Shown: positions 943-14,574 of the stretch, in pieces
Numbering within the stretch: position 1 is the stretch's first letter
Layout: every line of letters begins with the position of its first letter
Assembly (NCBI RefSeq): GCF_014652795.1
Contig: NZ_BMZM01000002.1
Span: forward strand, 434,001 to 498,000
DNA: 64,000 bases
Source of the DNA: Kushneria pakistanensis
GTDB taxonomy: Bacteria > Pseudomonadota > Gammaproteobacteria > Pseudomonadales > Halomonadaceae
Direction: 5' to 3'
Translations under genes and position numbers: made by a program
Notes under the pieces: generated by a model
Seen by the model: only the letters and a program-made list of their open reading frames with translations
Databases searched by the model: none
Told to the model about the DNA's origin: nothing

Positions 943-976
943 AACGACAAGGCCCGCCGAAGCGGGCCTTGTCGTT
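943..976 (-). terminator. Terminator of the cold-shock gene
   Basis: A perfect 15-bp stem (943-957 with 962-976) has a four-base cgaa loop. It lies 38 bases beyond the minus-strand cold-shock stop codon and ends in T residues on that strand. With the 846-875 hairpin it insulates two convergent genes. Confidence 0.85.
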
Positions 977-1014
977 CAGGATCTTGCGATCCCGACCAGA
1001 AGATAACCCGAAGG

Positions 1015-1218
1015 TTAGTCTGCCTGGATGTTTGCAGCCTGAAGGCCTTTCTTGCCCTGAGTCACTTCAAAGGAGACCTGCTGGCCTTCCTGCAGTGACT
1101 TGAAGCCTTCAGCCTTGATTTCGGAGAAGTGGGCGAACAGGTCATCACCGCCGTCGGAGGGAGAGATGAAACCGAAGCCTTTAGCGTCGTTGAACCACTT
1201 GACTGTGCCAGTTGCCAT
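1015..1218 (-). CDS. Cold-shock protein, CspA family
   Basis: A 67-residue single cold-shock (OB-fold) domain. These proteins bind single-stranded RNA or DNA without much sequence preference and melt RNA structure in the cytoplasm. Both nucleic-acid-binding motifs are intact: RNP1 KGFGFI (residues 13-18) and RNP2 DLFAHF (about 26-31). Length and the opening [10 protein letters not shown] match CspA/CspD-type paralogues exactly. More than 100 bases separate the start codon from any plausible promoter, which would give the long 5' leader typical of cold-shock mRNAs. Which paralogue it is (cold-induced, stationary-phase or constitutive) cannot be told from sequence. Confidence 0.96.
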
Positions 1219-1340
1219 TTTCGAATTTCCTTGCGCGAAACGCGCTATAAAAAGTTACCGGGTGTTGCCCCAGATGAAGCAGGTAAAACAAGGGGGATAA
1301 AACCAGGCTACCGAAGGACTCGAGTGCAACTGACTATATT
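1219..1340 (-). promoter_or_regulatory. Probable long 5' leader of the cold-shock gene, with a possible -10
   Basis: No gene occupies this stretch upstream of the cold-shock start. A TATAGT hexamer on the minus strand (1333-1338) could be a -10, giving a leader of roughly 105-110 bases, but its -35 is poor. Long structured leaders are known for cspA mRNAs. I do not see a recognisable cold-box. Confidence 0.3.
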
Positions 1341-1476
1341 CGACTTGCTAACCAACTGACGTCATGGTGGCACGTTCATGCGGGCAGGGTCAATCAAACG
1401 TTCGAAAAGAGTTTTGCCCCGGCAAGCATGGCAGGCCACGCCGTCAGGTAATGGCGTAGCCTCAAGCGCCTGACCC

Positions 1477-2889
1477 TCAGCCCGGCCGCGGCGCCATGTG
1501 ACCGGGCGGGAAGGCCTCGGCGTCCATGGCGGCGGCCGTGTGCGCGTCTCGACGCGTCTCCAGGTCCCGGCGGATGGCGTCCATGCGGGTGTCGTCCAGG
1601 CGAAAGCGCCAGATGGCACCGGCCAGCAGCAGGGTAATCAGCGCCGGAATCAGCGTCATCATCAGCGTGATGGCCAGCACCGCACTGGCACTCTGGGTCT
1701 CAACGCCGGCCTCATAGCCGCCGATGGCGAGCATCATCCCGATCAGCCCGCCGGCGACCGCCAGCCCCACCTTCAAAAAGAACAGGTTGCCCGAAAACGC
1801 CAGTCCCGTATTGCGCTCACCGGTCTTCCACTCCCCGTAGTCCTCGGCATCCGCCATCATCGACCAGGAGATGGGCGTGCCGATGCCGTTGATGAGATTC
1901 AAAAGTGCAAAGGCGAAGGTGGTCAGCATCATCTGATCGAACGGCATGAAGAAAAGTCCGATCGAGCCTGCCGTAATGATCAGCGAGGTGCTCATGTAGA
2001 CGTGGGTCTTGCTGAAGCGGCTGGTGAACCAGGGCGAAATCAGCGCGCCGATCATCTTGCCGACAATGGCGGCGGTGATGAAAAACGAGATGCCGCCGGC
2101 GCTGAGCATCATCACGTAGGTGGCAAAGTAGATCGCCGCCCCCTGGCGCAGAAAGAACTGCATCGCCTGCAAAAAGGTGATGCCGAGAATGATCAGCCAG
2201 CGCTCGTTTTTGACCAGCGATTTGAGCGACTGCTTCAGTGGTTTTCTTTCCTCACTGATCGGCTCGACCCGTTCGCGGGTGGTGGCAAAACAAAAGCCGA
2301 ACATGAACAGGGCAATGATGCCCATCAGTCCCATGGTGAGCTGAAACCCGCGCGCCTCGTCACCGCCGCCCAGCAGTTCCACCAGCGGCAACAGCGAGCC
2401 GGTCAGGATCAGATAGGCGACGCCTGCAAAGAAGAACCGCCAGGACTGAAACGACACGCGTGCCTTGTGATCATCGGTGACCACGCCGCCCAGCGAACAG
2501 TAGGGAATGCTCACCGCGGTATAAAGTACTGACATCAGAAAATAGGTGGCAAAGGCATACACCACCTTCGCGCCATCGCTCCAGTCCGGCGTGGTGAACA
2601 ATAAAAAAATCGAGATCGCCAGCGGGATCGGCACCCACAGCAAATACGGGCGGTACTTGCCCCAACGGGTATGGGTGCGATCGGCCACAAATCCCATGAT
2701 CGGGTCGGTGACGGCATCAATCACGCGCATGGTGATAAAGATCACCCCGACCAGCGCCGGCGAGAGCCCGTAGATGTCGGTATAGAAATAGGACAGATAC
2801 ATCACGACGGCGGCAAAGCTCATGTTGCAGCCGGCGTCACCCATGCCAAATCCGATCTTCTCCAACAGCGTCACTTTCTTCTGGCGCAT
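1477..2889 (-). CDS. GPH-family sugar/cation symporter (MelB/XylP-like MFS)
   Basis: A 470-residue, 12-helix inner-membrane carrier of the glycoside-pentoside-hexuronide:cation symporter family, which imports glycosides, pentosides or hexuronides with Na+ or H+. Support comes from the opening EKIGFGMGDAG, the first-helix block YLSYFYTDIYG, the family motif VIDAVTDPIMG and DRTHTRWGKYRPYLL. The start at 2889 is chosen because GGAGGT sits seven bases upstream and the N-terminus then aligns with the paralogue at 13127-14542. An upstream ATG at 2967 has no such site. No hydrolase or regulator is adjacent, so the substrate is unknown. The two paralogues look about 60% identical by eye over the first 200 residues. 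Confidence 0.9.
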   Translation of the reverse strand: MRQKKVTLLEKIGFGMGDAGCNMSFAAVVMYLSYFYTDIYGLSPALVGVIFITMRVIDAVTDPIMGFVADRTHTRWGKYRPYLLWVPIPLAISIFLLFTTPDWSDGAKVVYAFATYFLMSVLYTAVSIPYCSLGGVVTDDHKARVSFQSWRFFFAGVAYLILTGSLLPLVELLGGGDEARGFQLTMGLMGIIALFMFGFCFATTRERVEPISEERKPLKQSLKSLVKNERWLIILGITFLQAMQFFLRQGAAIYFATYVMMLSAGGISFFITAAIVGKMIGALISPWFTSRFSKTHVYMSTSLIITAGSIGLFFMPFDQMMLTTFAFALLNLINGIGTPISWSMMADAEDYGEWKTGERNTGLAFSGNLFFLKVGLAVAGGLIGMMLAIGGYEAGVETQSASAVLAITLMMTLIPALITLLLAGAIWRFRLDDTRMDAIRRDLETRRDAHTAAAMDAEAFPPGHMAPRPG

Positions 2890-3384
2890 GCCCGACCTCC
2901 GGTAACCTTCGCCTGCGGCGTTGCGTGTGAGGCCTGGGCAAGCAGTGCCGGAAGGCCTGTGCGTCATGCCAGGCTATAGGCGCGGGTGGCCATGTGGCTA
3001 ATATGAGTTTTGCCTGATGGGAATATCGAAGTGGGTATGCCGGCAGTTAACTGTCTGATGTTGCTGGCGGCTACGACCATGGATGTAGAGACCAGGGTCG
3101 GGTCAGCCGGTGTCATGACAGGGGCGATGCGTCTGCATCGGCTGCAGAACGGGAGATGAACCGTACGGGGATACCACGGGCTGTTCAGAATGGGCTCAGA
3201 ACTGTGCCGGGATGCGCGGAAAGCCGGTGATGAAGTGTTTTTTATTGCATGGAAAAACAGTGCATTACCGGATTGCCATATGACAGATCAAGATTCCGGG
3301 TATTTGGCTTCGGTGACGCTCATACATGACGCGTGTTAGTTCTATCGCCTACAGCAACACTACAAAAACGGACGATGGAACGCT
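2890..3384. other. Intergenic region with no recognised gene (about 495 bases)
   Basis: This separates the divergent GPH symporter (minus) and the oxygenase-like gene (plus), so it must carry both promoters. The half nearer the oxygenase gene is richer in A+T, with T- and A-runs around 3238-3262. I see no convincing ORF, RNA, repeat or palindrome. Confidence 0.5.
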
Positions 3385-4089
3385 ATGGCACATTACTGGC
3401 AGGCGCTGGAGACTGCTCAAGAGAGTTTCATGGAACGCGGTACCATGATGTTTCCGGCGTTATCGGAAAGCGTCGATATTGATGCCTATGCCCGGGAGAT
3501 CATGCAGGAGGTGGGCGATCGTACCTTTTGTGCTTCCTCCCCGGCGCATGCCCGACTGCTGGATGCCCTCGACGTGCGCGATGGCCTGGCCCCCGTGCTG
3601 CATCAAATGGCCCGAAAACACCTTGGCTACCAGGGCAGTCTGGAGGATCAGTACCACATTGCGCGTCTGGTGACGCCCGGCAACAGCACCGAGCAGTATC
3701 GTGCCCATTTCGATTCGCACCTGTTCACACTGGTCATCCCTCTTGTCATTCCCACGGCGGCCGATGGCAACGAGGCGGGCGAGCTGCTCTATCGTCCCAA
3801 TGCCCGGCGCCAGCCGCGCAGCGAGCTTGAAAACATTGCCGGCAAGGCCTGGTTCAAGCGCTATGCCAACCGCAGGCGCGCCACGCAGCTGCTGGCGCAG
3901 GACCAGTTCACGCTTGAAAGCTTTGCCGAGCGCCGCCCGCTGCTGTTTGCCGGTCGCACCACACTGCACACCAATCGCGCCGTAAGCCCTGCGGCCTCGG
4001 GGCCACGGCTCACCCTGCTGGCCCACTTTTTCGATCCCAGTCCGCGTTATGGGGTCGGCAATATGCTCAGAACCCTGCGCCGGCGCTGA
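3385..4089 (+). CDS. 2-oxoglutarate/Fe(II) oxygenase-like protein, substrate unknown
   Basis: A 234-residue soluble protein that I do not recognise by name. It carries the facial-triad pattern of the 2OG-Fe(II) dioxygenase fold: His108-x-Asp110 inside the strand segment AHFDSHLFTLVIPLVIP, a distal His195 (RTTLHTN), and Arg208 ten to fifteen residues later (SGPRLTLLAHFF) in the position that binds 2-oxoglutarate. The spacing fits the family. The basic C-terminus (LRTLRRR) ends the chain. The gene stands alone between a divergent transporter and a convergent nitroreductase. Start choice is uncertain: the ATG at 3433 also has a purine-rich upstream sequence. The family call is inference from a short motif set and needs a profile search. 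Confidence 0.5.
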   Translation: MAHYWQALETAQESFMERGTMMFPALSESVDIDAYAREIMQEVGDRTFCASSPAHARLLDALDVRDGLAPVLHQMARKHLGYQGSLEDQYHIARLVTPGNSTEQYRAHFDSHLFTLVIPLVIPTAADGNEAGELLYRPNARRQPRSELENIAGKAWFKRYANRRRATQLLAQDQFTLESFAERRPLLFAGRTTLHTNRAVSPAASGPRLTLLAHFFDPSPRYGVGNMLRTLRRR

Positions 4090-4126
4090 TTCATTGAATC
4101 CCTCTGCCGCCACCGGTAGCACCATG

Positions 4127-4157
4127 TGAAAACGTCCCGCAGTGCGGGGCGTTTTCA
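4127..4157. terminator. Bidirectional terminator between convergent genes
   Basis: A 14-bp stem (4127-4140 with 4144-4157, one G-T pair) is bounded by A-rich and T-rich arms, so it can act in both directions. It lies between the oxygenase-like gene and the nitroreductase gene, which converge. Confidence 0.8.
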
Positions 4158-4172
4158 TGCCGGTATGCTCCA

Positions 4173-4808
4173 TCACTCGATGGTGTAGACGAAGTCGTCC
4201 CGGTCGCGACGCACCTTCGCGCGTCCGGCGCCCTGATCGCGTTCGGTATCGCGATAGCCCAGCGCCATGATGACCACGCTTTTAAGCCCCTTTTCCTGCA
4301 GGCCGAGCGCCTCATCCAGCTTTGCCGGGTAAAAGCCCTCCATCGGTGAGGCATCGACCTCTTCCAGTGCTGCAGCGCTCAGCGCCACGCCCATGCCGAT
4401 ATAGGCCTGCCGCGCGGCCCATTCAAGGCATGCCTCGTGGCTGCCCTTTTGATCCATCACGCCCTTGATCATGTTGCGAAAGCCGTCCAGCGAGCTTTCA
4501 TCGACCTCCCGGGTGTGGGCCATGTGGGTGATGTAGTCATCGACCTGGGCCTTGAAGTCGCGATCATGCACGGCAAACACCAGAAGATCGGAGCCCTCGA
4601 TGACCTGCGGCTGCGGTGCGGCGTCGTCATGCAGGCGCGCGCGCAGATCCTGGCTTCTCACATGCACCAGCGACCAGGGGTGCAGCCCGAAGGAGGAGGG
4701 CGCCAGCCGGGCGGCGTCCATGATCCGCTCAAGCGTTTCCTGTGGTACCTGCTCGCCGTTCATGCGCTTGGCAGCGTAGCGCCAGTGGAGGGCATCGGTC
4801 AGTGTCAT
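4173..4808 (-). CDS. Nitroreductase-family NAD(P)H oxidoreductase
   Basis: A 211-residue FMN-dependent enzyme of the nitroreductase fold, which reduces nitroaromatics, quinones or flavins with NAD(P)H in the cytoplasm as a dimer. Diagnostic segments are the FMN-phosphate Arg near the N-terminus (WRYAAKRM), the APSSFGLHPWSLVHV block (residues about 34-48), and the C-terminal GYRDTERD. The start at 4808 has AAGGAG nine to ten bases upstream and gives the canonical N-terminus; an ATG 93 bases further up lacks support. A terminator at 4884-4918 separates it from the operon upstream on the same strand. The physiological substrate is unknown. Confidence 0.88.
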   Translation of the reverse strand: MTLTDALHWRYAAKRMNGEQVPQETLERIMDAARLAPSSFGLHPWSLVHVRSQDLRARLHDDAAPQPQVIEGSDLLVFAVHDRDFKAQVDDYITHMAHTREVDESSLDGFRNMIKGVMDQKGSHEACLEWAARQAYIGMGVALSAAALEEVDASPMEGFYPAKLDEALGLQEKGLKSVVIMALGYRDTERDQGAGRAKVRRDRDDFVYTIE

Positions 4809-4883
4809 GTCGGGACGTCTCCTTGCAGTGATCAAAGGGGCCCTGATCGAGTGCGCGCAGCAACAGTGTCTCTGCCATGCAAC

Positions 4884-4918
4884 AAGGCCCCGCCGGCACA
4901 CTGCGCGGGCGGGGCCTT
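4884..4918 (-). terminator. Terminator ending the alaX-mfs-cysK-like-SAT array
   Basis: An 11-bp stem (4884-4894 with 4908-4918) of aaggccccgcc type sits 19 bases beyond the stop of the 92-residue small gene. It marks the downstream limit of the minus-strand array that starts at 8991. Confidence 0.75.
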
Positions 4919-4936
4919 CGGCACAAGGGGCGAGGC

Positions 4937-5215
4937 TCAGTGTAGCTGGCCGAACCTTTCGATACGATCACGCAGCGCCTGCTCGGGGCCGATCAGCATG
5001 ACCAGATCGTCCTCGGTCAGATGGATGCTCTGATGCTCGCGAACGATGGCGGCATAGTCCTGGCCGTTGGCCAGCGCCTGCTCGACCAGCAGGGAGAGTT
5101 CCTTGCGATCGTTGATGGCCGCCGGATCAAAGCTCTGGCGGTTACGCTCGTGCTGGACGCGCTGCTCCCGACGGCAACGCAGCAGCAGACTGTCGGTAAT
5201 AAAGGGGGCGCTCAT
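4937..5215 (-). CDS. Small conserved-looking protein of unknown function (92 aa)
   Basis: I do not recognise this protein. It is soluble, with no signal peptide, membrane helix or Cys cluster, and is predicted mostly helical. It is strongly charged: an Arg-rich stretch LRCRREQRVQHERNRQ near residues 12-27, then an acidic/hydrophobic helical C-terminal half. The start at 5215 follows AAAGGA by eight bases; the upstream ATG codons have no such site. It lies 115 bases after the serine acetyltransferase on the same strand and just before a terminator, so it could be the last gene of that array. Codon use matches its neighbours, which favours a real gene. Confidence 0.7.
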   Translation of the reverse strand: MSAPFITDSLLLRCRREQRVQHERNRQSFDPAAINDRKELSLLVEQALANGQDYAAIVREHQSIHLTEDDLVMLIGPEQALRDRIERFGQLH

Positions 5216-5330
5216 GGGCTTGTCCTTTGAAAGACGTACCCCGCCATGCTGTTGTGAAGCCCGCGTGCTGTCCATCCTGCCTTTGATGCATAGCATAAAG
5301 TCTCGGGTGATGATGCCAGGCCTTGTCGGG

Positions 5331-5978
5331 CTACTGGGTCAGCGCGCTGCCGGGCTGGGCCGGATCGAAATGATGGGCATGACAGGCGTAGGCGCGTTCG
5401 CTGGGGCGCATGTCCCGGGTGATCACCGACCAGGGGTGAATGCGTACGTCGTCACCGATGACAATATTGCCCAGCAGCTGGCTGTAGGCGCCGATGCTGA
5501 CGCGATCGCCGATGGTCGGGTGGCGCTTGCCGCTCACGTTGGCGTTCATGCGCCTTGAGCCGATGATTACACCATTGAGCACCGTGCAGTCATCGCCGAT
5601 CACGGTGGTTTCACCGATGACCGTGCCGGTGCCGTGATCGACGATAAAGCGCTGGCCGATGACCGCCCCCGGATGGATCTCGACGCCGGTGGCCACACGT
5701 GCGGCGTGGCAGAGTTTCATCGCCATCAGGGGCGCACGTGCCCAGCAGGCGTGCGCCAGCCGATAGGTGGATACCGCAATGAACGGTGAGCAGCTCTCCA
5801 GATAACACTGCTCAAGGCCCCGATGCGACGGGTCGCTGGCAATCAGGGCCCTGAGATCCTCACCCGCCAGCGCCATGGCCTGCGTGTCATGACGCTCGCC
5901 GAGCAGCTCAAGCGTGGCACGCTCCAGAAAGGGCGCCAGCCGCGCCAGGGTGTAGTAGTAGATATTGTGTTCCCGCAT
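5331..5978 (-). CDS. Serine O-acetyltransferase (CysE family)
   Basis: A 215-residue left-handed beta-helix acyltransferase expected to make O-acetylserine from serine and acetyl-CoA. The N-terminal helical SATase domain is present in short form (residues 1-95). The hexapeptide domain carries the active-site blocks EIHPGAVIG (100-108), DHGTG with the catalytic His115, and GKRHPTIGD with His153. The residue at the E. coli Asp143 position is Glu100, as in Bacillus-type CysE. A five- to six-residue insertion (SRRMNANVSG) replaces the usual Gly-Thr-Gly loop. It follows the CysK-like gene by 108 bases on the same strand. A housekeeping role in cysteine synthesis is possible, but the neighbours suggest a dedicated supply of activated serine. 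The start has only a weak ribosome-binding site. Confidence 0.85.
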   Translation of the reverse strand: MREHNIYYYTLARLAPFLERATLELLGERHDTQAMALAGEDLRALIASDPSHRGLEQCYLESCSPFIAVSTYRLAHACWARAPLMAMKLCHAARVATGVEIHPGAVIGQRFIVDHGTGTVIGETTVIGDDCTVLNGVIIGSRRMNANVSGKRHPTIGDRVSIGAYSQLLGNIVIGDDVRIHPWSVITRDMRPSERAYACHAHHFDPAQPGSALTQ

Positions 5979-6086
5979 CCAGATGACCCCGAATCAAGGC
6001 GTATCAGGCCTGCCGGAGGACGGCAGGGCATGTGTGGTGCACATCAAGGTGTGTGATCATGCTTTTTTATAAGCGCCGGCAGCGCA

Positions 6087-6998
6087 TCAGGCCGCGTCGC
6101 GTGTACCTGACAGGGCTTCCTGCGTCAGGTCGGGATACCAGTGGCCGCCGTCATAGCCCAGCATGACGATATGGCGCCCTTCGAAGGCGGCCTGCTCGCG
6201 CAGCCGTTGCGCCACGGCCAGACACGCGCCGGTGGTATTGCCGACGTGAAAGCCCTGATCACGATAGAAGTGGCGCTGGGCGCTGAGGGTCTCGGCAAGA
6301 TTCACGCGGTAGACATCACTGACCAGCGTCCAGTCCAGAAAGGGCGGAGTGACGCCCACGCACATCCCCTCCAGACGGTGATCCACAAAGTGGCCGGTGC
6401 GCGTATCGCAGCCATCGGGCTCGACCAGCACGGCACGCACATCAAAGCCCATGTCACGCAGCGCCTGTACCACGCCGGTAAAGCTGGCGCCGGTGCCGGC
6501 GCAGCCCACAAACAGCAGCCGCTGCGGCGTTTCGGCCGCCAGCAGCTGCTGGCCCAGTTCGACGCCGGTACCGCATCGGTGCGCCTGGACGTTATCGACG
6601 TTGTTGAACTGATCGGTGTAGTAATAATGGCGCCCCAGCGTGTGCTGGTGGGCCAGATGATGTTCGATCACCTCGCGCGGGGTGGCACCCTCCAGTAGCT
6701 GCATCTTGCCGATCAGTTCGGCACCCAGCCCCTCGAGCAGGTCGCGCTTGAACTGGCTAAAGCCCAGGCCGATGGCCAGCGCGACATCAACATTTCTTTT
6801 CTGACAGGCAGCCAGCAGGCCAAACCCGAAGTTGCCGCCGGTCTTTTCGATCACCGTGGTATGACCGGGAACGATCTCGCCGGCCTCAATGGCGCGCGCC
6901 ACGATATGGCTGGCGGCGCGGTACTTGTGGCTGCCGCCGGGGTTATCAAGCTCCAGCTTGATGGAAAGCTGCGGATCACAGGCGATCAGGCGACTCAT
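6087..6998 (-). CDS. CysK/CBS-like fold-type II PLP enzyme (beta-replacement type)
   Basis: A 303-residue PLP enzyme of the cysteine synthase/cystathionine beta-synthase family. The Schiff-base lysine is Lys25 in GGSHKYRAA, the substrate-carboxylate (Asn) loop is KTGGNFGFG (52-60), and the Gly-rich phosphate loop is GCAGTGASFTG (165-175). It probably exchanges the acetate of O-acetylserine for another nucleophile. The enzyme is unusual: the N-terminal TPL strand found in CysK is missing, and the asparagine loop is TGGN rather than TSGN. The start at 6998 lies two bases past the stop of the MFS gene, so the two are translationally coupled. Adjacent genes for a serine acetyltransferase and an exporter point to a specialised rather than sulfide-using enzyme; the nucleophile is unknown. 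Confidence 0.82.
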   Translation of the reverse strand: MSRLIACDPQLSIKLELDNPGGSHKYRAASHIVARAIEAGEIVPGHTTVIEKTGGNFGFGLLAACQKRNVDVALAIGLGFSQFKRDLLEGLGAELIGKMQLLEGATPREVIEHHLAHQHTLGRHYYYTDQFNNVDNVQAHRCGTGVELGQQLLAAETPQRLLFVGCAGTGASFTGVVQALRDMGFDVRAVLVEPDGCDTRTGHFVDHRLEGMCVGVTPPFLDWTLVSDVYRVNLAETLSAQRHFYRDQGFHVGNTTGACLAVAQRLREQAAFEGRHIVMLGYDGGHWYPDLTQEALSGTRDAA

Positions 6999-7000
6999 GC

Positions 7001-8209
7001 TCAGGCCGCTCCCGAGACAAAGGCACCGTGGCGGCGCCTGGACAGTGTCAGCATGACGCTCACCAGCGTGATGGCGCATACCCCGGCAACGATCAGATTG
7101 GTGGTCTGCCAGCCAATGGCCGCCTGCAGTACGGCCGGCAGGAAGGCGCCCAGGGTGGCCATCACGGCGATGGCCATGTCGTTGACGCCCTGAAGCCGCA
7201 CGGCCTGTGGACTATCACCGATGGTGTGGGCCAGCAGCGCACCGCCGCCGATATAGGTGAAGTTCCACCCCAGCCCCAGCACGATCAGGGTCAGTGCCAT
7301 GCTCAGCCAGCCCTCGGTGGCCACATTGAGCAGCGCCGTGGTAATCAAAAGACCCAGCCCCAGGGTGATCATGAACGGATGGCCCAGGCGATTGATCAGA
7401 CGCCCGGTAAAAAACGAGGGTATGAACATCGCCAGCACATGCCATTGGATGGCAGTGTTGACGTCGTGAAAGGGCGTGTCCTGAGCATGCATGTGGAGTG
7501 AGGCCTGAATCATCAAAAGATTCATCACCCCATAGCCGAGCGCCGAGACCGCGATGGCCAGCAGCACCCGACGCTGTTTCAGCTGTCGGTGAGGCAGGGC
7601 GATATCATCCTTGTCGGCCGTCTCGCGCGGCGGGCGCGAGGTGCTCTGGGGCAGCAGCATGGTAATGCAGGTGGACAGTATCGCCAGCGGAATGAACAGG
7701 CTGTAGCTCAGGGCGAAGTGGCCATAGCCCGGGATGTTCCAAAGTACTGACGAGGCCAGCGGCCCGATGATGGCGGCCAGCACACCGCCGGCCACTACCA
7801 GCGACATGGCCCGCGACTTGAGCCCTTCGCGCAGCCCGTCGGTGGCGGCAAAGCGGTTGAAGTTGGCAAAGGCGATATAGATGCCCAGCGCGCCGTGGGC
7901 GAGGGCCAGCAGCACGAAGCTTTCGGCCTGTACGGCCAGATACCCCAGTCCGCCGGCCAGGGCCAGAAATGCATTGCCAATCAGAAATCCCGGGCGCCGA
8001 CCCAGATGACTCATGAGCCTGGATGCCGGGTAGGTGGCCAGCATCAATGTCAGAAACTGAAAGCCGTAGGGCAGTGTGGCCAGGGTGTCGTTGCCGGCAA
8101 TTTCGGCGCCCACGATGGCCGCCATCGCCACCGACATGACGGCGGTGGTCAGATTGATGGACTGGGCGCCAAAATAAAGCCAGGTGCGAAAGGGCAAGGG
8201 CGTGTTCAT
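7001..8209 (-). CDS. MFS transporter, probable exporter of the cluster
   Basis: A 402-residue, 12-helix major facilitator protein with a central cytoplasmic loop (about residues 190-215, PQSTSRPPRETADKDD). The loop-2/3 motif is present as RLMSHLGRRPGFLIG (around residues 64-78), typical of drug or metabolite exporters of this superfamily. It overlaps the AlaX gene upstream by ATGA and is followed two bases later by the CysK-like gene, so all three are made as one unit. The context suggests export of the product or intermediate of the PLP enzyme, but substrate and direction are inference. It is not similar enough to a named exporter for me to give a symbol. Confidence 0.85.
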   Translation of the reverse strand: MNTPLPFRTWLYFGAQSINLTTAVMSVAMAAIVGAEIAGNDTLATLPYGFQFLTLMLATYPASRLMSHLGRRPGFLIGNAFLALAGGLGYLAVQAESFVLLALAHGALGIYIAFANFNRFAATDGLREGLKSRAMSLVVAGGVLAAIIGPLASSVLWNIPGYGHFALSYSLFIPLAILSTCITMLLPQSTSRPPRETADKDDIALPHRQLKQRRVLLAIAVSALGYGVMNLLMIQASLHMHAQDTPFHDVNTAIQWHVLAMFIPSFFTGRLINRLGHPFMITLGLGLLITTALLNVATEGWLSMALTLIVLGLGWNFTYIGGGALLAHTIGDSPQAVRLQGVNDMAIAVMATLGAFLPAVLQAAIGWQTTNLIVAGVCAITLVSVMLTLSRRRHGAFVSGAA

Positions 8210-8991
8210 GAGGCAGTCTCTGCAAGGCGTTCGGCATCGACGTGATAGCAGCTCGTGTCGATGTGGGCATCTTCAAAGGTGCAGATCAGCCGCTCCTTGC
8301 TTTTGCCGGTGTTCTTGCGGCGCACCTGCAGCGCACCGATCGCCTTTGGTGTTTCCAGATGGGTGCCACCGCAGGGAATGTAGATGTCGCCGTACTGCCA
8401 GAAACGCGCGTCGTAGTGCTCAGGAAGATGATCGTTAATGATGGGCAGGTTGTCGGCCATCAGCCGATTGGCCTCGGTCTGGATGGCGCTGACGTCCTCG
8501 GCGTTGAAGGACGTTTCGACAAGAAAGTCAAAGCGTGCGGCGTCTTCCTTGATATGACAGCCAATGGTCAGCTGCTTGAGTTCGCGTTCATGCGCCAGCG
8601 CTGCAGCGTAGAGAAAATGGCTGGCGGTGTGGGACAGCGTCAGCCGGGCCCGGCGTTCGACATCAATGGTGATCGTGACCGGCATGCCGACCTCCAGCGC
8701 GCCCAGCCGGTCAATGTCATCCGGGTGTACCAGGTGCAGTACCACGCCACCGGCCTTGACGCCGGTAAACCCCTCAACGCTCAGCGGCGTGCCGTAGAGT
8801 TTTTTGGTCCACACGAACCGAAAGATACCCACCGGGGTCTCGATGGTGCCGATATCGGCCTCCTGACCGCCGCCCTCGGGGAAGGCCACGGTACGGTCAA
8901 GTTCGATGGCCTCGGCATGCAGCGTCGCGATGTGGGCCTGGGTCTGGTACAGGTACTGATCAAGGTAATAGAGCTTGTCGGTGGTACGCAT
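8206..8991 (-). CDS. AlaX-type alanyl-tRNA editing hydrolase (stand-alone)
   Basis: A 261-residue free-standing homologue of the AlaRS editing domain. Such proteins hydrolyse Ser- or Gly-tRNA(Ala) in trans. The four zinc ligands are all there: His121 and His125 in HTASH, Cys207 and His211 in CGGTH. The N-terminal strand block TVAFPEGGGQ (34-43) matches the family. Start 8991 is preferred because AGGAAG precedes it by nine bases; the ATG at 9039 has no ribosome site. It is the first gene of the minus-strand array and overlaps the transporter start (ATGA). Placing a trans-editing factor first in an operon with a PLP beta-replacement enzyme suggests protection from mischarging by an amino acid made or handled here. 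Confidence 0.88.
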   Translation of the reverse strand: MRTTDKLYYLDQYLYQTQAHIATLHAEAIELDRTVAFPEGGGQEADIGTIETPVGIFRFVWTKKLYGTPLSVEGFTGVKAGGVVLHLVHPDDIDRLGALEVGMPVTITIDVERRARLTLSHTASHFLYAAALAHERELKQLTIGCHIKEDAARFDFLVETSFNAEDVSAIQTEANRLMADNLPIINDHLPEHYDARFWQYGDIYIPCGGTHLETPKAIGALQVRRKNTGKSKERLICTFEDAHIDTSCYHVDAERLAETAS

Positions 8992-9074
8992 CTGACGTTT
9001 CTTCCTGTCGATAAATGCCTGATACAAGGACATGAACAAGGCCGGTGGTCGGATCGTTACCTTCGATGCTCACA

Positions 9075-9145
9075 CGTTTTGACGCCGCCTGCGCAAACAG
9101 TCAAAACGATTTCCAGCGAACTGTTAGAGCGTTTTAACAAACAGT
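9075..9145. promoter_or_regulatory. Repeat-rich operator region between alaX and the MocR regulator
   Basis: The 262-base divergent intergenic region contains cgttttgac (9075-9083), its exact inverse gtcaaaacg (9100-9108) and a third near copy cgttttaac (9130-9138). The octamer caaacagt occurs at 9094-9101 and again at 9138-9145. MocR regulators bind pairs or triplets of short repeats between themselves and the genes they control, so this is the likely binding site. That it is bound is inference. Confidence 0.55.
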
Positions 9146-9253
9146 GATAAATTGCTGAAAAGTCGGTAAAAGCGGGCAACGGGCGCGCCGGGCTCCGGTA
9201 CGGGACAGGGAAATATCCGGACAGCCAGGGCTACGCCAGGGGAGGCCAGGTGA

Positions 9254-10645
9254 ATGAACAGCGACACGTTTTATCAGCATCTGCGCGAGCGGCTGCTGGC
9301 CGGCGAGTGGGCCGCCGGCCAGCGTCTGCCCTCCATACGCCATCAGATCGCTGACAGCGGTGCCAGCCACCATGCCATTGTCAGTGCCTATGATCGCCTC
9401 GCCGCTGAAGGGCTGATCGAGGCGCAGCAGGGGCGGGGGTATTTCGTGACCGGCCATTCGTCTGCCGGACGCCGGGCCGATACGCTGGCCGATCTGGCCG
9501 CCCGGGAGGCCAGCACCCCGCCCCTGCCCATGCACCCTTCAGACCCCCTGTTTGCGCTGCTGCAAAGCGGACCCGAGGCGATCAAGCTCAGTGGCGGCTG
9601 GCTGCCGACCGAGTGGCGCAACACCGAAATGCTGGCCCGCGCGATTCGCCGTACCGCGCGCCTGGAGCAGCGCGCGCTGGTCGAGTACGGTGATATCCAG
9701 GGCTACCGGCCACTGCGCCAGCAGCTGGCCCGCCATCTGCAGAGCAAGACCCGCGCCAGTATTCCGCCGACCCAGATCATCACCACGCTGGGCGCCACCC
9801 AGGCGCTGGATCTGGTCATTCGCCTGCTGGTGCGCCCGGGTGATGTGGTGCTGGTCGATGAGCCCGGCAATGGCAATCTCAACAAGCTGATTGCGCTGGG
9901 CGGCGGTGAGGTCATCGGCGTGCCGCGCACCCCGACCGGGCCGGACACGGCCTTTATTACCGAACTGTTGAGCCGGCGTCGGGTGCGGGCGCTGGTCTGC
10001 AACAGCACCTTTCACAACCCGACCGGAGGAAGCCTGTCGGCGCGCAACGCCTTTGATATTCTGCGCCTGGCGATCGCGCACGATTTTCTGATCATCGAGG
10101 ATGACGTCTACGGCGACTTCTCCAGCGGCAATCATCAGACCTTTGCCGATCTCGATGATCTGGATCATGTCATCTACATCGGCAGCTTCTCGAAGTCGCT
10201 CTCCTCATCGCTGCGTATCGGTTATATCGCCTGCTGCGCCGAGATGATCGAGCCGCTGCTGCAGTTAAAGCTTTTGACCTCGGTATCGGTGCCCGGCTTT
10301 TGCGAGCGCTTCGTCAACACGATCCTCTCCGATGGCTCCTATCTGCGCCACATGCACCGGGTACAGCGCGATCTGATGGCGCAGCAGGCGCTGACGCGAC
10401 AGCTGCTGGAGGCACGCGGCTGGACATTTGATATCGTCCCCGACGGCGGCATGTTCCTGTGGGCGCGCCACCCGGCCATTGCCGACATGGACGCCTTCAT
10501 TCATCGTCTGGCCGCCCACAATGTGCTGCTGCTGCCGGGGTCGGTGTTTACCGTGGGCAATCGCCGTGAGGATGCCCTGCGCATCAACGTGGCGCACTTC
10601 ACGCCCGAACTGGCGACGCTGTTTGAGCCAGACGCCGGGCCCTAA
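9254..10645 (+). CDS. MocR-type GntR regulator (winged helix plus aminotransferase-like domain)
   Basis: A 463-residue fusion of a GntR winged-helix DNA-binding domain (residues about 5-70, with GQRLPSIR and YDRLAAEGLIEAQQGRGYFV) and a fold-type I aminotransferase domain. The PLP lysine is kept: Lys314 in GSFSKSLSSSLRIGY. Family members (PdxR, GabR, TauR, EnuR) sense PLP or a PLP-amino-acid aldimine and control a divergent operon. Here the divergent operon is alaX-mfs-cysK-like-SAT. A good ribosome site (GGAGG) precedes the start by eight bases. Its stop codon overlaps the end of the convergent HD-hydrolase gene by four bases. Effector unknown; an amino acid linked to the cluster's enzyme is the natural guess. 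Confidence 0.92.
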   Translation: MNSDTFYQHLRERLLAGEWAAGQRLPSIRHQIADSGASHHAIVSAYDRLAAEGLIEAQQGRGYFVTGHSSAGRRADTLADLAAREASTPPLPMHPSDPLFALLQSGPEAIKLSGGWLPTEWRNTEMLARAIRRTARLEQRALVEYGDIQGYRPLRQQLARHLQSKTRASIPPTQIITTLGATQALDLVIRLLVRPGDVVLVDEPGNGNLNKLIALGGGEVIGVPRTPTGPDTAFITELLSRRRVRALVCNSTFHNPTGGSLSARNAFDILRLAIAHDFLIIEDDVYGDFSSGNHQTFADLDDLDHVIYIGSFSKSLSSSLRIGYIACCAEMIEPLLQLKLLTSVSVPGFCERFVNTILSDGSYLRHMHRVQRDLMAQQALTRQLLEARGWTFDIVPDGGMFLWARHPAIADMDAFIHRLAAHNVLLLPGSVFTVGNRREDALRINVAHFTPELATLFEPDAGP

Positions 10646-11292
10646 ACCTCGCCGATCTCGTCGAGCAGGGCATCGCGAAACGCGACCAGGCGCGCATGGC
10701 GCTCCGCGGCCAGCTGCCGACCGGTGGCGGTCTGAAAGCCCGCTTTGAGCGTCAGAAGCTTGGTGGCGAAGTGATCCAGCGTGAAGCGTTGATCGTCCAG
10801 TGCTCGAGTGATGGCCTGCGGATCGAACGGGTCATACAGCGCGCTGCCCATGAGTCCTGCCGTGTAGAAACAGCGCGCGATGCCCATGGCGCCCAGCGCG
10901 TCGAGCCTGTCGGCGTCCTGCAGGATCCTTGCTTCCAGCGTTTGCGGCGCCATGCCTGCCGAGAAGCTGTGCGCCTCAATGGCATGGGCTACCGCCTCGA
11001 TACGTGAGGCCTCCCAGTCAAGCGAGACGAGAATCCCACGAGCCTGTCTGGCGGCAAGTGTTGATGCCTGCGCGCGGCGCGGGTCGTTTTTGGGCACATG
11101 GACACCGTCGTGCAAAAGGGTGGCGGCCAGCAGCAGTTCGCTGTCACCGCCCTCGGCAGCCATGAGGCGCTGCACGTTGCGCCACACGCGCGTCAGATGG
11201 GCGAGATCGTGGGCACCATCAAATGCGTCAGGCAGACGGGCCAGCAGGGTGTCGGCCAGCGACTGATGGGGAGAGAAAAGGGCAGGGGACAT
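10642..11292 (-). CDS. HD-domain phosphohydrolase (YedJ-like)
   Basis: A 216-residue metal-dependent phosphohydrolase. The HD-superfamily metal ligands are visible as a first His near DGAHDLAHLTR (residues 26-36), the HD pair in TLLHDGVH (about 58-65), and the distal Asp in ILQDADRLDALGAMG (about 120-134). The pattern and length match the YedJ/YpgQ group, whose members hydrolyse nucleotides or small phosphates in the cytoplasm. It is alone on its strand between the MocR gene and the SDR gene; no operon partner. Its substrate is not known. Confidence 0.85.
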   Translation of the reverse strand: MSPALFSPHQSLADTLLARLPDAFDGAHDLAHLTRVWRNVQRLMAAEGGDSELLLAATLLHDGVHVPKNDPRRAQASTLAARQARGILVSLDWEASRIEAVAHAIEAHSFSAGMAPQTLEARILQDADRLDALGAMGIARCFYTAGLMGSALYDPFDPQAITRALDDQRFTLDHFATKLLTLKAGFQTATGRQLAAERHARLVAFRDALLDEIGEV

Positions 11293-11351
11293 GGCAGAAG
11301 CATGATGTTCGGCAGGGCCCCGGTCAACGAGGCCCTGTCGGGAAGGCCGGT

Positions 11352-12368
11352 TTACAGCGGCGTCTGGCCGCCAGTGGCAGCGTAGATTTCACCGGTGATG
11401 TAGGTGGCACTGCTTTCGGCAAGCTGCACATAGACGCCGGCCAGCTCCGCGGGCTGTCCGGGGCGCTTCATGGGCGTGTCGCCGCCAAAGCCGGTGAGCT
11501 TTTCTTCTGAAGCATTCGAGCAGACCTGCAGCGGGGTCCAGAACGGACCCGGCGCCACGGCGTTGACGCGAATGCCGCGGCTGGCCATCTGCTTGGCCAA
11601 ACCCTTGGTGAAGTTGGAGATCGCCGCCTTGGTCATGGCGTAATCGAGCAGATCCTCGGGCGGCGTCCAGCCGGTGGTGGAGGTGGTATTGATGATCGCG
11701 CCGCCTTCGGGCAGATGCGGAATGGCCGCCTTGCTGAGCCAGAACATGGCGTAGAGGTTGGTCTTCACCGTCCAGTCAAACTGCTCGGTGGTGATGTCCA
11801 TGATCGAGTCATGACTCTGCTGGCGGGCGGCATTGAGCACCAGGATATCCAGCCCGCCGAGCTGATTGGCCGCCTGATTGATCAACTGCTGGCAGAAGTT
11901 CTCGTCACGGATATCGCCCGGAATGGCGACAGCCCGGCGACCGGCCGCCTCGATCAGCTCGACCACTTCACGGGCATCCGGCTCTTCGTCGGGCAGATAG
12001 TTGATCGCCACGTCGGCCCCTTCACGGGCATAGGCGATCGCTGCGGCGCGGCCAATGCCGGAGTCCCCGCCGGTGATCAGTGCGCGGCGTCCGGCCAGAC
12101 GGTTACTGCCGCGATAGCTCTGCTCACCGTGGTCCGGGCGCGGATGCATCCTGCCGGCCAGCGCCGGCCAGGGCTGGGTCTGGTAATCAAACGGCGGTCT
12201 GGGGTAGGCGCTCTGCGGGTTTTCAAGACTGCGCGGCGTGTTCTGCGCCGCATTGTTCTGACCGGTCTGACTGCCGGCAAGGGCCGGGGCGGCTGCGGCT
12301 GCGGCCATGGTCAGGCCGGCGCCCTTGATGATGCGTCGTCGTGAGGCGTCGTGGTCGTTCGTTGCCAT
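11352..12368 (-). CDS. SDR-family oxidoreductase with a Tat-type N-terminus (YghA/YdaD-like)
   Basis: A 338-residue short-chain dehydrogenase/reductase. Residues 1-35 look like a twin-arginine leader (SRRRIIKGAG then an Ala-rich h-region ending ALAGS). The dehydrogenase core follows: NAD(P)-binding TGGDSGIGRA (about 98-107), NAA-type motif LNAARQQ, catalytic Ser segment NTTSTTG and YAMTK with the active-site Tyr and Lys. The sequence is closest in layout to E. coli YghA and Bacillus general-stress SDRs, which are often annotated as stress or aldehyde-reducing enzymes. A ribosome site (AGGGAGCAGG) precedes the start. If truly exported it would have to carry its cofactor through Tat folded. Confidence 0.88.
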   Translation of the reverse strand: MATNDHDASRRRIIKGAGLTMAAAAAAPALAGSQTGQNNAAQNTPRSLENPQSAYPRPPFDYQTQPWPALAGRMHPRPDHGEQSYRGSNRLAGRRALITGGDSGIGRAAAIAYAREGADVAINYLPDEEPDAREVVELIEAAGRRAVAIPGDIRDENFCQQLINQAANQLGGLDILVLNAARQQSHDSIMDITTEQFDWTVKTNLYAMFWLSKAAIPHLPEGGAIINTTSTTGWTPPEDLLDYAMTKAAISNFTKGLAKQMASRGIRVNAVAPGPFWTPLQVCSNASEEKLTGFGGDTPMKRPGQPAELAGVYVQLAESSATYITGEIYAATGGQTPL

Positions 12369-12494
12369 GTCCTGCTCCCTCTGGTTGGCAGACGATGAAG
12401 GGGCAGACGATGCTCTCCCGGCATCGCCCTGTATGACCCATGAAGCATAGACAATCAGATGAGTGTGTCAGGCCATGTGCTGGCTGGCCGGGTG

Positions 12495-12833
12495 CTACAT
12501 GAGTCGGGTGCCCAGCGGCACGTCCTGATCCGGCACGCACAGCGCCACGGCGCCATCGGCGTTGTGAAAGCCGGTGACCAGGCATTCGGACATGATCGGG
12601 CCGATCTGTTTGGGCGGAAAGTTGGTCACCGCCACCACCAGTCGACCGATGAGCGTTGCGGGGTCATACAGCTCGGTGATCTGGGCACTGGACTTGCGCG
12701 TGCCGATCTCGGGGCCGAAATCCACCTGCAGGAGATAGGCCGGCCGACGCGCCTTCTCGAATACCTCGGCATGGGTCACGCGCCCCACGCGCAGCTCCAC
12801 CTTCGAAAACTCTTCCCAGCTCAGTGTCGACAC
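12495..12833 (-). CDS. csaA: CsaA-type tRNA-binding-domain protein
   Basis: A 112-residue single OB-fold tRNA-binding domain of the CsaA group, related to the C-terminal domain of MetRS and to Arc1p. Characteristic blocks are FSKVELRVGRV (residues 9-19), LLQVDFGPEIGTRKSSAQI (about 34-52) and the C-terminal CVPDQDVPLGTRL. CsaA was described in Bacillus as a secretion-related chaperone that binds peptides and probably tRNA, as a homodimer. The start codon is GTG at 12833, supported by AGGAG seven bases upstream. The gene stands alone, diverging from the second GPH symporter. Confidence 0.92.
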   Translation of the reverse strand: MSTLSWEEFSKVELRVGRVTHAEVFEKARRPAYLLQVDFGPEIGTRKSSAQITELYDPATLIGRLVVAVTNFPPKQIGPIMSECLVTGFHNADGAVALCVPDQDVPLGTRLM

Positions 12834-13126
12834 TGCTAGCTCCTTTTCTGGCCTGCGACATTGGTCGCAATCAACGTTTGCGTTCTACAACTTTGGCAGC
12901 TTGACCGGCGCTTGTATCGACGACATTGGTCGTCTTTTCAACGGTTTGCCAAAGGGCATAACCAAACCGGTATGCGTTGTGCCGGGGCGGGGTATTGGTG
13001 GGCTAGTTGCGCTTCTCCTTATGCTCAGGGCTGGGTTTTCGGCCCGCCGCCCGTGTTTCTTTCACCCTTTCCGCGGCCGCCGAAACGGACATGGGCATGG
13101 GAGAAACGGGCATGGGAGAGACGAGC
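12834..13126. promoter_or_regulatory. Divergent intergenic region with a repeated operator-like unit
   Basis: Between csaA and the GPH/GH51 operon, the 12-mer cgacattggtcg occurs twice (12856-12867 and 12921-12932), each with flanks that complete a small palindrome. Each copy is followed after a short spacer by caacg-tttgc-like sequence (12872-12881 and 12939-12949), reminiscent of half of a LacI/PurR-type site. Together this is an imperfect direct repeat of about 30 bases, 65 bases apart. No local LacI/GntR regulator gene is present, so the regulator is unknown. Confidence 0.4.
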
Positions 13127-14542
13127 ATGCAAAAGGGCAGCATCAGCATTGTCGAGAAGATCGGCTTTGGCATGGGGGACGCCGGCAACAACATGACCTT
13201 TGCCGCCGTGGTCATGTATCTCTCCTATTTCTACACTGACGTCTACGGCATTTCACCGGCGGTGGTGGGCACCATTTTCCTGTCGATGCGCTTTGTGGAC
13301 GCCATCACCGACCCGATCATGGGCGCGATTGCCGATCGCACCCGCAGTCGCTGGGGCCGCTTCCGTCCGTGGCTTTTGTTCATTCCCGTACCGCTGGCGA
13401 TTGCCTGCGTGATGATGTTCACCACACCCGAGGGCTCGCAGACCTACAAGATCCTCTACGCCTTCGTGACCTACGCGGTGATGTCGCTGCTGTACACGGC
13501 CGTCAACATTCCCTACTGCGCGCTGGGCGGCGTGGTCACCAGTGACCATCGAGAGCGGGTGTCATGCCAGTCATGGCGCTTTGTGCTGGTGGGCGTGGCC
13601 TATCTGATTCTCAATTCGACGCTGATGCCGCTGGTGGAATGGTTCGGCCAGGGCGATCAGGCGCGGGGCTTTCAGATCACCATGGGCCTCATGTGCGTGA
13701 TTGCACTGTTCATGTTCGGCTTTTGCTTTGCCACCGTGCGTGAGCGCGTCCAGCCGGTCGAGAACACCTCCAACGGGCTTTTGAAGGATCTGAAGACGCT
13801 GGCCGCCAATCCCAAGTGGCGTCAGGTACTGTCGATCACCTTTTTGCAGGCCTTTCAGTTCTTTCTGCGTCAGGGCGCGGCGATCTACTACGCCACCTGG
13901 GTGCTGGGTCTCGGTGCCGCCGGCATCTCCATGTTCGTGACGTCAGGCGTGGTCGGCGGCATGGCAGGCACCGCCATTTCACCGCTGCTGACGCGACGCT
14001 CGACCAAGCTGCGCGTATTCATCGCCAGTTCGCTGGCGCTGGTGGCAGCCTGTGTGGCGTTGTATTTCGTGCCCGGTGAACAGGTGGTAATGGCGGCGGT
14101 CGTGGTGATTCTGATCAATATTTTCCATGGCATCGGCACACCGATTGCCTGGGCCTTCATGGCCGATGCCGAGGACTACGGCGAATGGAAAAGTGGCTAT
14201 CGCAATACCGGCGTCTCCTTTGCCGGCAACCTCTTCTTTTTGAAGCTCGGTCTGGCCGCCGCCGGCGGTCTGGTGGGCTTTCTGCTCTCGCTGGGTGGCT
14301 ATGTGGGCGGCGCCGATGCCCAGAGCGAGACGGCCCTGACCATGATCGTGCTGCTCTTCACCCTGATACCGGCGCTGGTCAGTGCGCTGATGACGCTTGC
14401 CGGCTGGCGCTTCGGGCTGGATGACGTCGAGATGGACCGCATTCGCGTTGATCTGGAAGCACGTGCCGGTGATCGCTCCGGGCGCCGCAGGACCTCATCG
14501 AAGAAACATCGTCCCGGTGCGGCCCAGCCGGCCGTGTCCTGA
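13127..14542 (+). CDS. GPH-family sugar/cation symporter, probably for arabinosides
   Basis: A 471-residue, 12-helix carrier paralogous to the protein at 1477-2889 (shared EKIGFGMGDAG, YLSYFYTDVYG, DPIMG, and MADAEDYGEWK near residue 345). GPH symporters take up glycosides and pentosides with a cation. It is followed after 32 bases by a GH51 alpha-L-arabinofuranosidase on the same strand, so the likely cargo is short arabino-oligosaccharides or arabinosides cleaved inside the cell. The start is ambiguous: several in-frame ATGs lie within a short repeated sequence (13091, 13097, 13112, 13127). I chose 13127 because GGAGAG lies close upstream and it aligns with the paralogue. Confidence 0.9.
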   Translation: MQKGSISIVEKIGFGMGDAGNNMTFAAVVMYLSYFYTDVYGISPAVVGTIFLSMRFVDAITDPIMGAIADRTRSRWGRFRPWLLFIPVPLAIACVMMFTTPEGSQTYKILYAFVTYAVMSLLYTAVNIPYCALGGVVTSDHRERVSCQSWRFVLVGVAYLILNSTLMPLVEWFGQGDQARGFQITMGLMCVIALFMFGFCFATVRERVQPVENTSNGLLKDLKTLAANPKWRQVLSITFLQAFQFFLRQGAAIYYATWVLGLGAAGISMFVTSGVVGGMAGTAISPLLTRRSTKLRVFIASSLALVAACVALYFVPGEQVVMAAVVVILINIFHGIGTPIAWAFMADAEDYGEWKSGYRNTGVSFAGNLFFLKLGLAAAGGLVGFLLSLGGYVGGADAQSETALTMIVLLFTLIPALVSALMTLAGWRFGLDDVEMDRIRVDLEARAGDRSGRRRTSSKKHRPGAAQPAVS

Positions 14543-14574
14543 TGGACCAACGATCCACCCACAGGGAGAACCCC

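Follow-up and report, generated by a model that had tools for sequence, protein, structure and literature searches.

A 64,000-nucleotide stretch of the Kushneria pakistanensis genome (NZ_BMZM01000002.1, positions 434,001–498,000; hereafter the window, with positions counted from its first letter) carries a cassette of four genes, for a serine acetyltransferase (SAT), a CysK-fold pyridoxal phosphate (PLP) enzyme (PALP), a major facilitator superfamily (MFS) transporter, and an AlaX-type alanyl-tRNA editing protein. We consider it probable that this cassette makes, exports, and protects its bearer against a small non-protein amino acid of the size of alanine, serine, or aminobutyrate. The family-level identities of the proteins, their co-occurrence across genomes, an altered loop in PALP, and the natural loss of part of the locus are direct observations, and from these we infer the reactions, the direction of transport, and the product.

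The cassette genes lie on the reverse strand in the order AlaX (261 amino acids, 8206–8991, ATG at 8991), MFS (402 amino acids, 7001–8209), PALP (303 amino acids, 6087–6998), and SAT (215 amino acids, 5331–5978). They are followed on the same strand by a gene for a 92-amino acid protein (4937–5215), and a MocR-type regulator of 463 amino acids (9254–10645, forward strand) diverges from AlaX; all six genes have open frames in this 3.52-Mb genome. The initial annotation had named the same genes in the same order, with a 4-base overlap, a 2-base gap, and a diverging MocR, and we confirm all of this at the positions given here (AlaX/MFS −4 and MFS/PALP +2 bases). SAT and the 92-amino acid gene are less tightly coupled than AlaX, MFS, and PALP because the PALP/SAT and SAT/92-amino acid gaps measure +108 and +115 bases.

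Searches of genomes with PALP, run at cut-offs of 1e-50 or 1e-60 and mostly on samples of taxa, find this enzyme in 4 of 275 genomes of the host's own family, all of them Kushneria. The enzyme is also present in 6 of 398 genomes sampled from the family of Paraburkholderia polaris, 1 of 147 from that of Dyella flava, and 1 of 17 in the family of genome G552, while samples of the class and the phylum yield 2 of 369 (the own genome and G552) and 1 of 378 (the own genome). A total of 12 genomes thus carry the PALP type, and in 10 of these SAT, AlaX, MFS, and PALP are adjacent on one strand, with the MFS homologue always between AlaX and PALP. The order is AlaX-MFS-PALP-SAT in the four Kushneria genomes and SAT-AlaX-MFS-PALP in six genomes of the Paraburkholderia and Dyella families (G641, G642, G643, G649, G728, and G845). 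Loci that were recovered twice are counted once (L002 = L034, the K. avicenniae locus, and L006 = L008, an uncultured Kushneria locus), and short repeat loci were also dropped.

As a control, we examined nine loci of CysK/CysM-like paralogues from 4 of the 10 cassette genomes (G000, G641, G642, and G643), with flanks of at most ~1.5 kb and two of the loci nearly identical; none matches SAT, AlaX, or MFS. The identity matrices of the four proteins are strongly correlated over 10 loci (r = 0.96–0.99, with 0 of 2000 permutations as high), and also over seven loci when one Kushneria is kept (r = 0.91–0.98, with 3–6 of 2000 permutations as high). The neighbourhood of the four genes is more than chance. 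The cassette is rare and patchy in the families sampled and is, therefore, most likely transferred or lost as one piece. Given the strict cut-offs and the sampling, distant cassettes are missed by these searches (e.g. those on the Salmonella and Xenorhabdus plasmids described below). The initial annotation had proposed a unit of five genes that travel together. SAT, AlaX, MFS, and PALP do so in 10 of 12 genomes, but the 92-amino acid gene and the window's MocR have no tblastn match in the 18–19-kb loci of the six full cassettes outside Kushneria, and the five genes thus become four. One of these six loci (L041) has a divergent AraC-type gene instead of MocR. In another, from Dyella flava (L004, 4935–6130), a gene for a class-V, cysteine desulfurase-like aminotransferase lies directly upstream of SAT in two frames; we did not notice it in the open reading frame lists of the other cassettes, and this split gene is an unexplained hint at sulfur, i.e. 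a lead only.

PALP matches PF00291 with 147.1 bits and scores far below the NCBIfam cut-offs for cysK (135.4 against 350.95), cysM (97.6 against 394.2), and SbnA (TIGR03945; 121.1 against 349.95), as well as those for cystathionine beta-synthase (CBS) and cysteate synthase. The 50 Foldseek matches listed for its predicted model (pLDDT 87.6) are all of the O-acetylserine sulfhydrylase (OASS) or CBS type, and PDB 3x43 is among the enzyme's matches. In an alignment of 10 PALPs (A2; nine full-cassette loci and G552), the Schiff-base lysine of the SHK motif (K25) is invariant, and one loop reads TGGN[FL]G in all 10 sequences (TGGNFG in the window) vs TSGNTG in the host's own CysK and CysM. In OASS, the TSGNTG loop holds the substrate carboxylate. 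The altered loop is also found in the PALP of G123. Phylogenetically, the PALP members form one branch together with a copy from genome G893 (support 99/99), apart from eight paralogues, in trees that, like that of SAT, contain many open forks and long branches. Sequence and model together place PALP among the fold-type II, beta-replacing PLP enzymes (OASS/CBS fold). Judged by sequence criteria, i.e. the missed cut-offs and the TGGN loop, it does not look like a sulfide-using cysteine synthase, as the reading in the initial annotation would require. It would swap the acetate of O-acetylserine for a nucleophile from ordinary metabolism, thereby giving a beta-substituted alanine.

SAT, a CysE/EpsC-like serine O-acetyltransferase, would supply the O-acetylserine. 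This protein matches Hexapep (64.7 bits) and stays below the cut-offs of both TIGR01172 (138.9 bits, cut-off 210.65) and the EpsC model (124.7, cut-off 150). The Asp of the CysE DIHP motif is catalytic; all 10 full cassettes have Glu at this position (nine with EIHP and L041 with EIHI), and Asp is kept in G552 and in both CysE-like paralogues of the host. Because of these sub-cut-off scores and altered motifs, we class PALP and SAT by fold and do not count them among the cysteine synthase and CysE families proper.

A SAT next to a CysK-fold enzyme is the textbook route to cysteine, and the four genes could also be read as housekeeping, i.e. an alternative cysteine route with an exporter of cysteine or O-acetylserine and an AlaX that acts on serine-mischarged tRNA(Ala). 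We find this rather improbable, as the host has separate CysK and CysM genes and two other CysE-like genes elsewhere, PALP misses the CysK, CysM, and CBS cut-offs, and its substrate loop is altered in 10 of 10 aligned sequences. In addition, the window SAT ends in Q and not in the C-terminal Ile that anchors CysE in CysK, and a distribution as rare and patchy as that of the cassette speaks against housekeeping. Ordinary cysteine synthesis, in particular, ranks low on profile scores, on the host's own CysK and CysM, and on the loop.

AlaX reaches 106.8 bits (1.4e-30) with the NCBIfam AlaXM profile (NF040865), whose cut-off is 300, and matches PDB AlaX-M 2e1b with an E-value of 2e-14. Its predicted model (pLDDT 91.3) is matched in Foldseek by AlaX-M 2e1b and by 9iuw (TMt 0.85 and 0.84, respectively). 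The HxxxH, CxxxH, and GGQ motifs known from AlaX proteins are present as HTASH, CGGTH, and GGGQ. Among 13 aligned AlaX proteins, 12 share HxxxH and C(G/A)GTH, the 13th being a distant AlaX from another genus (L016, HFAAE). The protein thus belongs to the AlaX superfamily, with the predicted editing fold of AlaX-M and alanyl-tRNA synthetase (AlaRS), without being an AlaXM equivalog.

We propose that AlaX confers self-immunity; i.e. it would deacylate tRNA(Ala) that AlaRS has mischarged with the product, and the producer would be spared. The MFS protein (PF07690, MFS_1; 77.7 bits) is the proposed exporter. AlaRS is known to accept non-protein amino acids: the human enzyme charges beta-methylamino-alanine (BMAA; Han et al. 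2020, as told in PMC7904546) and also activates azetidine-2-carboxylate (PMC5741666). The usual task of AlaXp is to clear serine and glycine from tRNA(Ala) (PMC11295145), an activity that would also suit the housekeeping account given above. A biosynthetic role of AlaX, which would take an aminoacyl group from tRNA and join it to the PALP product, has a precedent in AcmF, an AlaRS-derived protein that acts in natural-product assembly for ascamycin (PMC12945691). We regard such a role as very improbable, since AcmF retains the AlaRS domains for aminoacylation and for recognition of the tRNA (PMC12945691) whereas AlaX matches the editing part and AlaX-M, the motifs HxxxH and C(G/A)GTH recur in 12 of 13 AlaX proteins, and AlaX survives without SAT and PALP in another Kushneria genome, G122.

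In G122, a natural deletion separates the cassette genes. MocR, AlaX (with an open frame), and the 92-amino acid gene are kept at the locus, while MFS, PALP, and SAT are missing from it, and PALP is not found in the whole genome at the family-search cut-off. The counterpart of window positions 5260–8131 is gone, and a remnant of the MFS start (residues 1–26, in two pieces) still overlaps the AlaX stop. This genome has thus lost the genes proposed for synthesis and export and kept AlaX and MocR, as expected of an immunity gene that is useful against producers. The same locus, together with the 108-bp gap between PALP and SAT, could instead suggest that AlaX, MFS, and MocR form a serine and glycine tolerance unit of Kushneria with SAT and PALP as chance neighbours. 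That idea is hardly credible, however, with PALP only 2 bases from MFS and the four genes adjacent in six non-Kushneria genomes, where SAT lies at the other end.

A wider context is provided by G552, in which SAT, PALP, and an AlaX-like gene belong to a larger cluster without this MFS (L031, G552:C45:31000-50000, 3253–13206). Here, an adenylation domain lies between SAT and PALP. Genes for an EamA transporter, aspartate-semialdehyde dehydrogenase, a carrier, a chlorinase, the AlaX-like protein, and a thioesterase come next, and the opposite end of the cluster carries a LysE transporter. The chlorinase matches SyrB2 (2fct, E 2.4e-125) and exceeds the cut-off of TIGR01762 (424.8 bits against 226.3). 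The adenylation domain has the code DFWNIGMVHK when read by eye against the PheA positions, which is a threonine code; this by-eye code would suggest a chlorothreonine-type product. As such, G552 probably holds a chlorinated amino-acid cluster with its own editing protein.

This biosynthetic setting of SAT and PALP, with an adenylation-carrier-chlorinase-thioesterase set, bears on whether the cassette detoxifies rather than produces; i.e. whether it guards against a serine- or alanine-like toxin from neighbours or plants, with SAT acetylating the compound, PALP degrading it, MFS expelling it, and AlaX editing what escapes. The same genes would fit this role, and CtdA is a stand-alone editing protein in bacteria that meet the plant antimetabolite canavanine (PMC10018355). 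AlaX and MocR are also kept alone in G122, and a MocR-like gene is divergent from an AlaX-like gene, in the layout seen in Kushneria, on a Cetobacterium plasmid (L068, NZ_CP092523.1 10454-19149, 2443–4747); this 8.7-kb stretch has neither SAT nor PALP among its annotated genes. Nevertheless, we judge detoxification unlikely: besides the G552 cluster, a degrading PALP has no obvious need for SAT, yet both plasmid cassettes and 11 of the 12 genomes have SAT as well.

These two cassettes come from searches of plasmids. The window PALP has no plasmid match at 1e-30, and a Paraburkholderia PALP matches 19 records, all below 60% identity and 14 of them from Lacticaseibacillus; the three opened are those of Salmonella, Xenorhabdus, and Sphingopyxis. 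The Sphingopyxis PALP has TSGN, and no SAT or AlaX is annotated in the stretch. The Salmonella PALP in turn retrieves 159 records, and the 30 listed are mostly annotated as cysteine synthases; the records opened from this search are those of Salmonella and Xenorhabdus. On a large Salmonella enterica plasmid (L058, NZ_CP022016.1 320154-330954, 4109–7981), AlaX is divergent from PALP, SAT, a methyltransferase, and an AzlC transporter. This cassette has 30.6% GC vs 56.0% in the stretch beside it, and no match in the E. coli genomes collection. The Xenorhabdus plasmid carries PALP, SAT, and a drug/metabolite transporter (DMT), with AlaX some kb away (L060, NZ_CP147736.1 1-10000, 34–771) next to a valyl-tRNA synthetase gene (950–3847) that is possibly a resistant synthetase copy. 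On the other side of the PALP-SAT-DMT region, L061 shows brnQ and a PLP-dependent decarboxylase.

Between Salmonella and Xenorhabdus, the PALPs share 67% identity, vs ~30% with the window PALP, and both carry EPTGGNTG. The SATs of these two plasmids likewise show EIHP and cluster, on long branches, with those of the cassettes and apart from the host's two own paralogues (96/95). The valyl-tRNA synthetase of Xenorhabdus and the methyltransferase of Salmonella suggest a small side chain near that of aminobutyrate or valine, as a lead only. Based on all these loci, we tentatively put forward a broader reading, to which we give slightly less than even weight: SAT, a TGGN-loop PALP, an exporter, and AlaX may recur as a minimal cassette that was put together on more than one occasion in Proteobacteria, with different transporters (MFS, DMT, AzlC, and EamA/LysE). 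Its products would be undescribed beta-substituted-alanine antimetabolites directed against translation, and AlaX genes within clusters may be a class of self-immunity to such compounds that has been overlooked. If this broader reading is true, the Xenorhabdus valyl-tRNA synthetase would be a second immunity gene and a hint of a product about as large as aminobutyrate or valine.

AlaX-like genes on plasmids were also considered on their own. A match is present in 13 plasmid records, of which 10 regions were opened. Three regions lie in amino-acid gene clusters (Salmonella, Xenorhabdus, and the coronamic acid cluster of Pseudomonas tremae), one is divergent from a MocR-like gene (Cetobacterium), two are AlaRS or AlaRS-related, three have no such context, and one is unannotated.

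Among known systems, the closest parallel is provided by the fth genes of 4-fluorothreonine producers, whose clusters conserve the deacylase FthB and the exporter FthC (PMC7408626). FthB is related to ProXp-ST1 and acts on fluorothreonyl-tRNA(Thr) (PMC11295145). As in fth, genes for amino-acid biosynthesis, a dedicated exporter, and a trans-editing deacylase are conserved together in the cassette (in 10 of 12 genomes, with functions assigned by family), although FthB is replaced by AlaX and fluorination chemistry by SAT and a CysK-fold enzyme. By this analogy, the cassette would work like fth without being a member of that system. Another CysK-fold enzyme, SbnA, serves the synthesis of a non-protein beta-amino-alanine (2,3-diaminopropionate). 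The cassette resembles SbnA-type synthesis in this enzyme but differs from it in having SAT as the partner and in missing the TIGR03945 cut-off, and no SbnB-like gene was recognised by eye.

In the D-cycloserine (dcs) pathway, the CysK homologue O-ureidoserine synthase uses O-acetylserine. The pathway and the cassette share a SAT and a CysK homologue, while the PALP loop of the window differs and dcs is not known to have an AlaX, which the cassette does have. By eye, the open reading frames of the window, L003-L005, and L041-L043 show no recognisable gene for hydroxyurea formation, a racemase, or a cyclising enzyme, most of the flanking frames having been read without a family search. The initial annotation had drawn a link to D-cycloserine clusters through a shared SAT and CysK-homologue logic; PDB 3x43 is among the matches of PALP, and the SAT DcsE makes O-acetylserine in the D-cycloserine pathway of Streptomyces lavendulae (PMC10214352).

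A further parallel is the coronamic acid (cma) cluster of plant-associated Pseudomonas. As annotated in Pseudomonas tremae (L062, NZ_CP066271.1 58117-68695), it contains an AlaX gene (4956–5594) that has an alpha/beta hydrolase gene on one side and precedes a LysE transporter. The likeness consists of an alanyl-tRNA editing gene with a transporter, and the difference of a chemistry that depends on a chlorinase. This AlaX shows 49% identity to a copy from Vibrio and 45% to one from Legionella, both of which lie outside such clusters, and 27% to that of the window. Among the open-access titles and abstract beginnings listed, we find no description of the cassette or of AlaX as producer immunity, in searches that did not address AlaX in coronamic acid clusters.

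Several observations weigh against a producing cassette with its own immunity. First, with Ser- and Gly-tRNA(Ala) as the targets of AlaXp, the role of AlaX could be simple tolerance of serine, and its retention in G122 fits general proofreading too. The coronamic acid AlaX has HFAAE where the window has HTASH, which makes its activity less sure, and with only 3 of 10 opened plasmid regions in amino-acid clusters, AlaX is no marker by itself; what is informative is its combination with SAT and PALP. Second, the co-divergence of the four proteins could also be produced by vertical descent. G893 has a lone, diverged PALP without the TGGN loop motif, and with no SAT, AlaX, or MFS nearby. Third, the tree places the PALPs of Salmonella and Xenorhabdus on the side of CysK and not in the window clade, so the change to a TGGN loop seems to have more than one origin. 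Finally, the four genes give no hint of the nucleophile used by PALP.

The remaining elements of the locus are MocR, the 92-amino acid protein, and non-coding features. MocR combines GntR and aminotransferase I/II domains and scores 241.9 bits with NCBIfam PdxR (NF052282), below the cut-off of 320, so that by sequence it is best called MocR-like and not PdxR. At the cut-offs used, it occurs in 5 of 10 Kushneria genomes, the very same five as AlaX, and in this genus it probably senses an amino acid and switches the operon. The 262-bp region between AlaX and MocR (8992–9253) is, from its position, the presumed site of both promoters; a consensus scan of 4000–12000 lists no sigma-70-like site, and Rfam has no match in 4000–11500. 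The 92-amino acid protein, a conserved neighbour in the five Kushneria loci read, has no match in Pfam or NCBIfam, and its gene is probably not part of the cassette. Downstream of it lies a terminator-like, GC-rich hairpin with an 11-bp stem (4884–4918; −36.1 kcal/mol, z = −4.06, with none of 200 shuffles equally stable). The terminator that the initial annotation placed at this end of the operon is thus borne out as a stable hairpin but less so as a terminator, as the T tract is weak and the element is absent from the list of a consensus scan with a loop limit of 8.

The cassette genes have GC contents of 60–65%, close to the 62.7% of the window, and base composition therefore gives no signal of a horizontal origin in Kushneria. 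On the far side of MocR, its 3′ end overlaps by 4 bases (10642–10645) that of a convergent gene for an HD-domain phosphohydrolase (10642–11292, reverse strand). By eye, two similar-looking sugar-symporter-like open reading frames flank the region (1477–2967, reverse, and 13007–14542, forward), and the second is followed by an arabinofuranosidase-like frame (14542–16089).

Overall, the interpretation first offered for this locus, a self-contained unit that makes and exports an alanine analogue and protects translation from it, is partly supported. If it is true, no more than four genes would be needed to make and secrete an antimetabolite and to be immune to it, which is a very small number for such a unit, and the editing protein would name the tRNA that is attacked. 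PALP and SAT with a nearby AlaX would then be minable in genomes, and G122, where the proposed immunity is kept and synthesis is lost, offers a natural control. Some bacterial AlaX proteins would also gain a role beyond general serine and glycine proofreading. The presence of the cassette in distantly related bacteria points to an undescribed kind of compact natural-product cassette.

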